Source: a bacterium
GTDB taxonomy: Bacteria > Sysuimicrobiota > Sysuimicrobiia > Sysuimicrobiales > Segetimicrobiaceae
Assembly: GCA_035295165.1 (NCBI GenBank)
Contig: DATGJN010000005.1
Location: 1-33,602 of the forward strand
Length of the DNA: 33,602 nucleotides
Reading direction: 5' to 3'
The notes under the pieces are model-generated. The model was given only the letters and a program-made list of their open reading frames with translations. It searched no databases and was not told where the DNA came from. Position numbers and translations under genes: made by a program. Below, in pieces: positions 328 to 3,342 of the stretch (position 1 is its first letter; each line of letters starts with the position of its first letter).

Positions 328-1458
328 TCAGACTCCTTTACGGGCTCTCGGCACCAGGGAGACGCGACCTCTCTTCCCCCGCTGCAGATCGTTGCTTCCA
401 CCATGACCGCCGTTTTCATCCTGTGTGGCGCTGCCCTGGAGCAGCATGGCCGACTCCTTTGTGGAAAGTCCGTGCGCGAATTTTGCGATCAGTGTAGCCA
501 AGGCTTCCGGCTGCTCGTGGGTGCTGAGATGACCGCCTGGCACACGCTCGATCTGGAGCCCGAGCTTGCCCAGCCGTTCTTGCGCGAGGTCGACTTGCCG
601 GTGTTCAAACGGATCTTCGTCGCTGCCCCCCACCAGGAACGGGAACTGATCGCGATACGCTTTGAAGAGGCGGCCGAGGTCGAGTCGGTCGCCTTGTGCT
701 TTATGATCGGCCACGAAGCCCGCTGCGGCGGCGAGGTAGAATAGGCCATCGTGGCGGTCCATGGCGCTATAGAGCTCGCGGACCTCGGCGTCCGTTACCT
801 GATAGCCTTTGGACCACATCACCCCTGCAATCATCTTGAACAGCGTGAAGGAACGCCCCAGACCGCGGCGGGCCCCGTTGGGGAGGCGGCGCAAGATCGG
901 CGTCGTGTACCAGGGGTGGGAGTGCCCGTCCGCGAAGAGCCCGCCATTGAAGATGAACACGCCGCGTATTTCCGGGCCGCCCGCGGGTTCGGCCCGCTCG
1001 GAGCGCTCAAACCGGCGCTGCAGGTGTTCCAAGACGACAAGCGAGGAAAAGTCGAAGGCGACCAGCGTCGTCGATCGGACACCAAAATCCCGCCAGATCG
1101 TTTCGACGAGATCGGTGCGTTCCGCGGTGGAATATGCATAATCCCTGGGCTTGTCGCTGTCGCCCATACCGACATACTCGACGAAAAGCTTCGGCATCTC
1201 GGCCGCGCTCGGTAAATGGGGGAGAACCGTGGCCCATCCAAACGAGCCATCCGGATATCCCGGCAGGAAGGACACAGCGTGGGCGAGATCTCCCTCCCAC
1301 CTCAAGAAGACGTGGAGGGGCGCGCCTTGGGCATCAACAATGGCACAAGCCCCGGGGTCATAGCCGACGCGCTCACCGCCCGCGAACCAGGCTTGCGCAG
1401 ACGGCATCCTGCCGACTTGTTCGGCGGCTATCATGTGCATCGTATCGGAACGGATCAT
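328..1458 (-). CDS. Alpha/beta-hydrolase fold protein, haloalkane dehalogenase/epoxide hydrolase-like
   Basis: This 376-residue protein has the layout of an alpha/beta hydrolase. It has an oxyanion-loop-like segment FLPGYPDGSFGW (about 65-75), a nucleophile-elbow segment LVAFDFSSL (about 132-140) with Asp136 where haloalkane dehalogenases and epoxide hydrolases carry Asp, and a C-terminal GGHLSTHEQP with the likely catalytic His310. The Gly residues usual around the nucleophile are replaced (AFDFSS instead of GHDWGG), so the exact reaction is uncertain. The ATG has a strong AGGAGG six to seven bases upstream. The last 40 residues are low-complexity and probably not part of the fold. It is the third gene of a leftward unit after the small ORF and the membrane protein, probably under the TetR-type control region at 2.5 kb. 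Confidence 0.75.
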   Translation of the reverse strand: MIRSDTMHMIAAEQVGRMPSAQAWFAGGERVGYDPGACAIVDAQGAPLHVFLRWEGDLAHAVSFLPGYPDGSFGWATVLPHLPSAAEMPKLFVEYVGMGDSDKPRDYAYSTAERTDLVETIWRDFGVRSTTLVAFDFSSLVVLEHLQRRFERSERAEPAGGPEIRGVFIFNGGLFADGHSHPWYTTPILRRLPNGARRGLGRSFTLFKMIAGVMWSKGYQVTDAEVRELYSAMDRHDGLFYLAAAAGFVADHKAQGDRLDLGRLFKAYRDQFPFLVGGSDEDPFEHRQVDLAQERLGKLGLQIERVPGGHLSTHEQPEALATLIAKFAHGLSTKESAMLLQGSATQDENGGHGGSNDLQRGKRGRVSLVPRARKGV

Positions 1459-1539: not shown

Positions 1540-2253
1540 TCAGGTCGCGGAGCGCGCTGGCAGCACGGCCCGTGGCGCACGTTCCTCGGATCTAATCTTT
1601 GCGGCGATCGTCAAGTGGACCAGGAGATAGAGTGGGACGAGCATCGTCGGGACCACGATCCACGGAAAAGCGCCCATCACCGCTGTGCCCGGCCCTTCCG
1701 TGAAGACCCGAAACGGTGTGCCGGGCGCCGAGAGCGCGCCGAGCGTAACCGCGTCGATCAGATCGGCGGCACCGAGAACGTTCCAGGCCAAGACCCAGCC
1801 GCGGTTCTTCGACCCTGTCGCAGCGATCGCCGCTACCGGAATCGCCAAGGCACCCGTCAAGGCGTCACCCCACCCTGCGGCCGGCCCGAACGGCGCGGAG
1901 ACCCGCCCCTGCGCGGCCGAGGTCGCCATCAAGATTCCCGCGAGCCGGCCAACGTTCACGGCAATGAGCGCCGGAAGTGGCACCGAGAGCAACGCGCTCC
2001 GAAATTGCGGGCCTGCACCCCACGCGATGAACAGGAGGGCAAAGAAGACTGCGAATGCCAGCACGGGAATCGGGACCGGCCCGGGAGCACCGAGGCCGAC
2101 GCCGGCAATAGTGACGACGATGACACCCCATAGCGCCGCGGCCGCAGCGAGGGCGAGCTTCGTGGATCGGCGGGCGGGTGCAAACCCCAGCAGAACGCCG
2201 ATGAGCACGGCATACAGTGCCGGATAAACAATCGCGCCAATGACCTCTAACAT
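1540..2253 (-). CDS. Multi-pass integral membrane protein of unknown function
   Basis: The 237-residue product is very hydrophobic with about six or seven predicted membrane segments. Examples are residues 3-25, 30-53, 60-82, 92-110, 125-145 and 190-218. A charged C-terminal tail rich in Arg and Ala follows. No family motif was recognised. The ATG at 2253 follows GGAGGAG with good spacing. It sits between the 48-codon ORF (2346-2492) and the alpha/beta hydrolase (start 1458, 81-base gap) on the same strand, so the three are probably one transcript from the promoter near 2550-2579. A role in transport or membrane sensing tied to the hydrolase substrate would be a guess. Confidence 0.7.
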   Translation of the reverse strand: MLEVIGAIVYPALYAVLIGVLLGFAPARRSTKLALAAAAALWGVIVVTIAGVGLGAPGPVPIPVLAFAVFFALLFIAWGAGPQFRSALLSVPLPALIAVNVGRLAGILMATSAAQGRVSAPFGPAAGWGDALTGALAIPVAAIAATGSKNRGWVLAWNVLGAADLIDAVTLGALSAPGTPFRVFTEGPGTAVMGAFPWIVVPTMLVPLYLLVHLTIAAKIRSEERAPRAVLPARSAT

Positions 2254-2345: not shown

Positions 2346-2492
2346 CTACCGGGCCTCCCGACGCACCGCGCGACTTGATGCTGCGCTGGCCAATGCGGCC
2401 GTCACACGGTTGCGGGTGAGCGGAGCGCGTGCCGCTCGGCAGGCGAGCCGGTGCCGGGGAAATTTGTCGCTGACGAGAATAGGCTTGACCAT
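2346..2492 (-). CDS. Small basic ORF, first in the leftward operon
   Basis: A 48-residue basic peptide begins MVKPILVSDKF. The ORF was chosen because its ATG at 2492 is preceded by AAAGGAGG with eight bases of spacing, and because the leftward promoter lies just upstream, giving a leader of about 50 bases. No domain was recognised. The N-terminus looks like an ordinary protein start, but the Arg/Ala-rich remainder is typical of shadow frames, so it may be the stump of a longer gene that has lost its frame. It could also act as a short translated leader for the membrane protein gene that follows. Confidence 0.4.
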   Translation of the reverse strand: MVKPILVSDKFPRHRLACRAARAPLTRNRVTAALASAASSRAVRREAR

Positions 2493-2512
2493 GACGATTC
2501 CCTCCTTTACAC

Positions 2513-2579
2513 TTGTTGCCGGTTGGTACCAGACGGTACCATAAACGCGATGATACGGTACCGGCTGGTACCATGTCAA
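2513..2579. promoter_or_regulatory. Face-to-face promoters with four GGTACC operator boxes
   Basis: GGTACC occurs at 2525-2530, 2535-2540, 2557-2562 and 2567-2572. Each pair forms a dyad GGTACC-N4-GGTACC, with box centres 10 bp apart within a pair and 22 bp between the inner boxes. A leftward promoter reads TTGACA (2574-2579), an 18 bp spacer and TATCAT (2550-2555). Boxes 3 and 4 fill its spacer. A weaker rightward promoter reads TTGTTG (2513-2518), an 18 bp spacer and TACCAT (2537-2542). Boxes 1 and 2 fall in its spacer or -10. The dyads suit a TetR dimer, and the tetR gene starting at 2593 is the obvious binder, controlling itself and the leftward operon. Binding is inferred; the boxes and promoter hexamers are seen. 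Confidence 0.7.
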
Positions 2580-2592
2580 GGGGGGATTTTTG

Positions 2593-3342
2593 ATGGCGGC
2601 ACGGCAGGCGTCGGAGTCGCGCGGGACACACGATGACGACAACTCGGTCCGGCAGCGGATTCTAAGCGCGGCCTTCGGAGCTTTTATGGAGCGTGGCTAC
2701 GCAGACACCAGCACGCGCGAGATCGCCACGCGCGCGCACGTTTCGAAACGAGAGCTCTATGCACTGGTCGGCAACAAGCAGAGAATGCTCACAGCGTGTA
2801 TCAGCGCGCGGGCGCAACGCCTCAAGGCGCCCGCTGGCCTGCCCGAGCCGCGTGACCGAGAGAGTTTGGCGCAAGGACTTACTGCCTTTGGGGTCCGCCT
2901 CGTAAGCGAGGTAAGCGATCCTGTCGTCATTGCCGTGTTCCGGCTCGCGATTGCCGAGGCCGTGCGCGCACCCGAGGTCGCACAGATCCTGGACTCCGCT
3001 GCCCGCAAGATCACTCGGGCCGCCTTGACGGACATCATGACCAAAGCTCGGTCAGCGAGGCTTCTTGGCGGCGATCCCGTTAAGATGACGGAACAGTTCG
3101 CCGGATTACTCTGGGGTGATCTGATCTTGGGGTTGCTCCTTCGTGTGATCGCTCGTCCGAGCGCGAGCGAGATCGCACGAAGGGCTCGCGATGCTACGGC
3201 AGCCTTCCTCAACCTGTATCCCGAGCCCGAGGGGGCCAGGCCGCGGAAGCCGTTGGCAAGGAAGAAATCACCTGAGGGCTCGAGCGCACCGTTGTTGAGC
3301 CCGATCTACACGGCGCACTTCCGGATGGAGAAGCCGGGCTAA
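2593..3342 (+). CDS. TetR-family transcriptional regulator
   Basis: This is a 249-residue TetR-type repressor. The N-terminal DNA-binding domain spans about residues 18-65: RQRILSAAFGAFMERGY, a helix-turn-helix around TREIATRAHVSKRELY and the trailing GNKQRM. The C-terminal ligand and dimer domain runs to about residue 205, followed by a basic tail of about 40 residues that is longer than usual. The ATG at 2593 is preferred over the TTG immediately before it, because AAGGGGGG lies at suitable distance. The gene is transcribed away from the membrane-protein/hydrolase operon and shares its GGTACC operator region. It most likely represses both directions until a hydrophobic or aromatic ligand, perhaps the hydrolase substrate, is bound. 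Confidence 0.88.
   Translation: MAARQASESRGTHDDDNSVRQRILSAAFGAFMERGYADTSTREIATRAHVSKRELYALVGNKQRMLTACISARAQRLKAPAGLPEPRDRESLAQGLTAFGVRLVSEVSDPVVIAVFRLAIAEAVRAPEVAQILDSAARKITRAALTDIMTKARSARLLGGDPVKMTEQFAGLLWGDLILGLLLRVIARPSASEIARRARDATAAFLNLYPEPEGARPRKPLARKKSPEGSSAPLLSPIYTAHFRMEKPG

Follow-up and report, generated by a model that had tools for sequence, protein, structure and literature searches.

Paired GGTACC dyads as a putative autoregulatory double operator of a TetR-family repressor

Four GGTACC boxes, arranged as two dyads that we call O1 and O2, lie just ahead of a TetR-family gene and very probably make up an autoregulatory double operator of the adjacent repressor, in which O1 would block transcription in both directions and O2 would block the leftward operon. 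The boxes were found in a stretch of bacterial DNA of 33,602 nucleotides, the whole of which is called the window here, and the features discussed below are collected in Table 1. An earlier note on this DNA had proposed that one TetR protein could switch both directions, and this proposal is now strongly supported, at the level of sequence, by paired dyads that accompany tetR orthologues and by the predicted leftward promoter around O2.

The boxes start at 2525, 2535, 2557 and 2567, at the successive offsets of 10, 22 and 10 bp that the earlier note had given. Reckoned at 10.5 bp per turn, the cumulative offsets of 10, 32 and 42 bp amount to 0.95, 3.05 and 4.0 turns, placing all four boxes on one face of the helix, again as previously suggested. 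They are best taken as two 16-bp dyads of the form GGTACC-N4-GGTACC, which do not overlap and are 32 bp apart from start to start. Neither four boxes nor two dyads arose in any of 20,000 dinucleotide shuffles of positions 2493-2592, and a single dyad arose in 3 of 20,000. Single boxes are frequent in the window, with 15 copies of GGTACC against 4.3 expected from dinucleotide shuffles, so an isolated GGTACC means little and it is the dyad that carries the signal. Eleven of the copies fall outside 2525-2572. A chance origin of the boxes was considered and ruled out by these shuffles, together with the count of dyads in the source genome and their co-occurrence with orthologues. A palindromic operator beside its own gene, such as is expected of the TetR family, can be read in the letters of the window (two dyads) and of 20 of 24 orthologues.

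Table 1. Positions and properties of the features discussed, in window coordinates
Feature	Position	Strand	Description
Alpha/beta hydrolase	328..1458	-	376 aa; weakly haloalkane-dehalogenase-like; in G001 the gene divergent from tetR encodes an 82% relative
Predicted membrane protein	1540..2253	-	237 aa; no Pfam match; adjoins tetR in G002 (79%) and, as a distant relative (29-33%), in G004
Leader ORF	2346..2492	-	48 codons; first leftward; good ribosome site; begins MVKPILV; no Pfam match
Best rightward (tetR) promoter candidate	2485..2513	+	TTGACC (2485-2490) -17- TACACT (2508-2513); promoter scan 9/12
Rightward promoter of the earlier note	2513..2542	+	TTGTTG (2513-2518) -18- TACCAT (2537-2542); matrix score 6.4
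Operator O1 (putative)	2525..2540		Dyad GGTACC-AGAC-GGTACC, boxes 1 and 2
Leftward promoter (predicted)	2550..2579	-	TTGACA (2574-2579) -18- TATCAT (2550-2555); promoter scan 11/12
Operator O2 (putative)	2557..2572		Dyad GGTACC-GGCT-GGTACC, boxes 3 and 4; within leftward promoter spacer
TetR-family repressor gene	2593..3342	+	249 aa; TetR_N and TetR_C_7, AefR-like

The TetR protein matches Pfam TetR_N (E 8.5e-11; 41.9 bits against a cut-off of 24) and the AefR-like domain TetR_C_7 (E 9.4e-16; 58.3 bits against a cut-off of 22), and its recognition-helix region is nearly invariant in an alignment of nine members. This protein very probably binds the dyads. A sequence search of the PDB yielded 8 distinct sequences at E <=1e-5, the best being 6g87 at 2.9e-13, matches that carry no information on the operator. 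Upstream of the gene, at about 2578-2585, is a purine-rich Shine-Dalgarno-like stretch. RNA folding gives an 8-bp stem at 2575-2594 that takes in the ribosome site and the beginning of the start codon, and such a stem could lower tetR translation.

The earlier note had named a search for the boxes elsewhere in the genome as a check. Across the 4.79 Mb and 121 contigs of the source genome the exact dyad occurs twice, both times at this locus, and 13 further sites depart from it by one mismatch. None of the 13 has a partner with three or fewer mismatches within 40 bp (the best partner has 4), so control looks local. A wider regulon in the same genome was considered and rejected, the 13 sites being unpaired and lying inside open frames of 182-699 codons, though long open frames are weak evidence for coding in a GC-rich genome. 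With the operators included, one-mismatch dyads exceed those of a reversed control modestly (15 against 10 in G000, 10 against 3 in G001, 12 against 7 in G002 and 9 against 5 in G004), which leaves room for a few additional single sites. The exact single dyad is present in 11 of 43 genomes, and the reversed control in 4. All four genomes with a strong orthologue have it, located at tetR, as do 7 of the 39 same-order genomes without a strong orthologue; no second dyad was seen at the loci of these 7, which contain 8 sites, one lying 27 bases short of a contig end, and their dyads are taken as chance.

Strong evidence comes from the upstream regions of tetR orthologues. Among 24 tetR genes from 23 genomes, picked by protein similarity alone, 20 are preceded, within about 250 bp, by a double dyad with no more than two mismatches altogether. 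For most later loci this upstream region was measured back from where the match begins, and otherwise from the start codon. No double dyad was found upstream of 26 other TetR genes or in 960 shuffled upstream regions. The 24 genes comprise four at E <=1.1e-72 from the first protein search, six at <=1.1e-60 reached via a distant relative, and 14 at <=1e-40 from later searches. Left aside were 12 matches at E 8.9e-21 or weaker from the search via the distant relative and the first-search matches no better than 7.1e-9; of these, 26 (loci L007-L032) served as the control TetR genes. The later searches scored up to seven candidates per genome, and the number of orthologue-bearing genomes is therefore a lower bound. 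Three of the relatives come from the genus or family of the window's genome (at 83, 62 and 62%), and the other orthologues, reached via a distant relative, would belong to distant bacterial groups.

The four orthologues without a double dyad are those of G148, where the stretch before tetR appears rearranged, of G100, where an ABC-type operon precedes tetR on the same strand, and of G416 and the second G436 copy (G436b), which have one dyad each. When the 40 dyads of the 20 paired loci, entered with up to three mismatches each, were compared, the outer GGTAC proved invariant and the inner GTACC departed once in 200 positions, while the 4-bp centre varied; fixed half-sites around a variable centre are as expected of a dimer touching two half-sites. 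The idea that O1 is invariably stronger than O2 was discarded, as which dyad is perfect differs between loci.

Another reading is that the two dyads act together. Two dimers about three helical turns apart might bind jointly, as a unit that can silence one promoter without a divergent tetR. In 17 of the 20 pairs the dyads are 31-34 bp apart, and G148 has a pair 32 bp apart (L076, 6615-6662) before an ABC-type operon with no adjacent tetR, on the same contig as its tetR and about 5 kb from it. The operon is a probable second target, predicted to be controlled in trans. That said, the remaining pairs are spaced at 23, 25 and 38 bp, so dyad spacing is not rigid, and the prevalent spacing may simply reflect promoter overlap; moreover, the model paper on Tn10 sees, in the passages concerned with its two operators, no indication of cooperativity between them (PMC3037858). 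Joint binding is thus possible but on the whole unlikely.

The positions of the dyads relative to promoters were evaluated with a matrix built on E. coli frequencies, which underlies all matrix scores given here. Twelve loci were scanned, 11 of them at tetR and one before the G148 ABC operon, and loci L105-L113 were left out. On the leftward side, the promoter described earlier, with boxes 3 and 4 in its spacer, is indeed present in the window. The best leftward match straddles O2 at all 12 loci, though weakly in some; O2 is wholly within the spacer at eight, and in the other four (G001, G111, G152 and G419) it extends 1-4 bases into the -10 element. Leftward scores range from 6.1 to 13.6, and those of G111, G432 and G436 were equalled by shuffles in 11-22% of trials. 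The leftward transcript of the window would start near 2543.

The rightward side is less uniform. The letters of the rightward promoter claimed in the earlier note (TTGTTG-18-TACCAT) are there, and its -10 hexamer does lie 7 bp from that of the leftward promoter, as was stated; as a promoter it is weak and was not confirmed, matching at 7/12 positions, being absent from the scanner output and having a -35 element that is not conserved in G002. Both the scanner and a separate matrix scan instead chose TTGACC-17-TACACT, with a score of 11.6 both here and in G002. The two genomes have 28 of its 29 bases in common, but on the opposite strand the leader ORF has its start and ribosome site in the same interval, so that this conservation is no proof of a promoter. 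From this candidate the tetR transcript would start near 2520, and O1 follows it. The position of the tetR-ward promoter varies among loci; in G004 a true mirror form exists, with a rightward TTGAAT-17-TATACT (score 12.3) nested on O1.

These observations bear on the idea of a symmetric switch, put forward in the earlier note, in which mirror-image promoters each carry their own dyad and the filling of one pair favours the opposite promoter. The letters and spacings of both promoters exist in the window, the layout is realised in G004, and in Tn10 the occupation of tetO2 alone can still allow transcription of tetR from one promoter, according to passages of PMC3037858. Exact mirror-image promoters are not borne out in the window, however, where the candidate at 2485-2513 outscores the rightward mirror (11.6 against 6.4), whose -35 element also differs in G002. 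Furthermore, the first bases transcribed from the leftward promoter would be covered by O1 as well, which should therefore not favour that promoter. We regard a symmetric switch as improbable.

The double operator of an autoregulatory repressor would work as follows. One repressor dimer would occupy each GGTACC-N4-GGTACC dyad. A dimer on O2, between the -35 and -10 elements, would keep polymerase off the strong leftward promoter and so silence the leftward operon, which would consist of the leader ORF, the membrane protein and the alpha/beta hydrolase. Relative to starts near 2543 and 2520, O1 would span roughly positions +3 to +18 on the leftward transcript and +5 to +20 on the rightward one. 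Since it lies just downstream of both predicted starts, O1 should shut both directions, giving negative autoregulation of tetR, and O2 should act mainly on the left operon; by position, only O2 should be direction-selective. A ligand would release the repressor and open both directions. The parts of this switch that we infer are the binding, the dimer stoichiometry, the repression, the extent of the operon, the start sites and the ligand. With either rightward promoter it is plausible that the two polymerases exclude each other, since overlapping footprints are expected. For starts near 2543 and 2520 the overlap would be about 18 bp, and the polymerases should either shut one another out or collide.

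A TetR-family gene that is divergent from a close neighbour usually represses that neighbour, according to parts of PMC3511530. The 200-bp rule given in the same parts of that paper fits the doubtful 48-codon leader ORF, 100 bp from tetR, and does not fit the next full-size leftward gene, 339 bp away. The similarity of the hydrolase to haloalkane dehalogenases (6e-12, 45.5 bits) is far below the curated cut-off of 241.

The genes adjoining tetR vary among orthologue loci. Another alpha/beta hydrolase is divergent from tetR in G436 and G419 (91% alike), an NmrA-like gene in G152 and G1100 (81% alike), and G106 has an ABC-type operon that includes an FtsX-like permease and a LolA-like protein, its ATPase being 79% alike to that of G129. 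A family of small membrane proteins is encoded at 13 of the 21 loci searched (E <1e-30), often as the divergent gene (for example L077, 5664-6161, plus strand); the members are 40-80% alike, and those scanned have no Pfam match. Between tetR and the present membrane gene of G004 lies a remnant of an NmrA-like gene, in three collinear, frame-shifted pieces at about 1232-1445 of L036 (weak E values of 0.15, 1.3 and 1.3), with its start retained next to the operators. The leader ORF of the window may, at a guess, be a further decayed NmrA-like gene; comparison with the NmrA-like genes of G004 and G152 gives no support for kinship.

One way to view this variety is as the history of a portable cassette: tetR and its paired operators would have moved between distant groups onto different cargo (an NmrA-like enzyme, the small membrane protein, an ABC exporter or an alpha/beta hydrolase), the dyads being kept because the dimers cooperate, with NmrA-like cargo decayed and replaced in G004 and perhaps in the window. 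We put this forward tentatively, as a history that may well not be the true one.

The paired pattern can also be sought without reference to any protein. Among 398 genomes of one phylum it matched 6, against 1 for a reversed control pattern, and the tetR protein profile matched at least 5 (up to seven candidates scored per genome). Pattern and profile coincide in 3 genomes, with the site directly upstream of tetR in each. The other three matches are directly upstream of TetR-family genes outside the orthologue group, at spacings of 25, 26 and 42 bp. Two of these are pairs of GGTACY-N4-RGTACC beside TetR_C_7 genes with a divergent HlyD-type membrane-fusion gene, 26 bp apart at G226:C41:109030-109071 (L082) and 25 bp apart at G539:C1:692990-693030 (L083); in the third, at G450:C10:985868-985925 (L081), dyads of the same type are 42 bp apart.

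Such pairs beside other TetR proteins suggest that this motif may be recognised by other proteins too, and that a different regulator could bind the boxes here, the adjacent tetR being incidental. Against this, a TetR-family gene is the neighbour at all six pattern-matched sites, and at the orthologue loci it is the other neighbours that change while tetR and the dyads stay, so this explanation is very improbable. Least credible of all is a role in RNA, with the long inverted repeat folding in the tetR leader to govern translation or termination: positions 2520-2600 do fold better than 200 shuffles (z -3.4) and a second stem spans the tetR ribosome site, yet any two self-complementary operators would fold likewise, O2 is upstream of the predicted leftward start and would hence be outside the leftward RNA, and no clear complementarity has been maintained between the two 4-bp centres (26 of 80 positions, where chance would give 20), on which ground an RNA hairpin was judged unlikely.

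The preferred reading, a double operator under the control of the adjacent repressor, has a familiar counterpart in Tn10, where the operator centres are spaced about 30 bp apart. The window contains a putative divergent neighbouring operon with two putative operators between it and tetR. In passages of PMC3037858 and PMC3511530, Tn10 tetR/tetA is likewise described as a TetR-family gene divergent from its target with two palindromic operators between; the operators overlap both promoters, tetO1 shutting both genes and tetO2 mainly tetA. This division of labour resembles that proposed for O1 and O2, which in the window would follow from position only. The stronger operator of Tn10 is tetO2, according to parts of PMC3037858. 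The two systems differ in operator sequence, in the C-terminal domain of the protein (TetR_C_7 in the window) and in the genes controlled; the leftward genes encode a membrane protein and a hydrolase in place of a tetracycline pump, and the locus is not a tet determinant.

Other members of the family offer partial parallels. Two dimers are expected on the control region here as in QacR, CgmR and CprB, and the operator half of CgmR as printed in a passage of PMC9210681 also contains GTACC. In those systems the two dimers share one site of 22-32 bp, and the dimers of CprB sit on opposite sides, as described in part of PMC4150764. No single 22-32 bp site for two dimers was found in the window, which differs in having two separate 16-bp dyads on one face; orthologue pairs are mostly 31-34 bp apart. 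MbdR of Azoarcus, described in parts of PMC4424350, is also a TetR-family protein with several operators, an 18-bp palindrome ATAC-N10-GTAT overlapping promoter elements, but its core and spacing are different and it controls an anaerobic degradation cluster. Closest in its C-terminal domain is the AefR-like TetR_C_7 group, whose G226 and G539 members also have upstream dyad pairs, differing in their spacing of 25-26 bp. A TetR operator with the paired GGTACC-N4-GGTACC layout was not found in the literature searched.

The system is very probably an ordinary TetR autoregulatory switch, with an operator sequence that the literature searched did not show. Less usual is that, as the controlled gene changes from one distant genome to another, the paired operator appears to persist. 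For a TetR_C_7 repressor group whose targets were not found described in the literature searched, the comparison yields a testable operator, GGTACY-N4-RGTACC in pairs. Such a paired operator allows targets to be predicted, the ABC operon of G148 being one example, and could, together with its repressor, serve directly in synthetic circuits.
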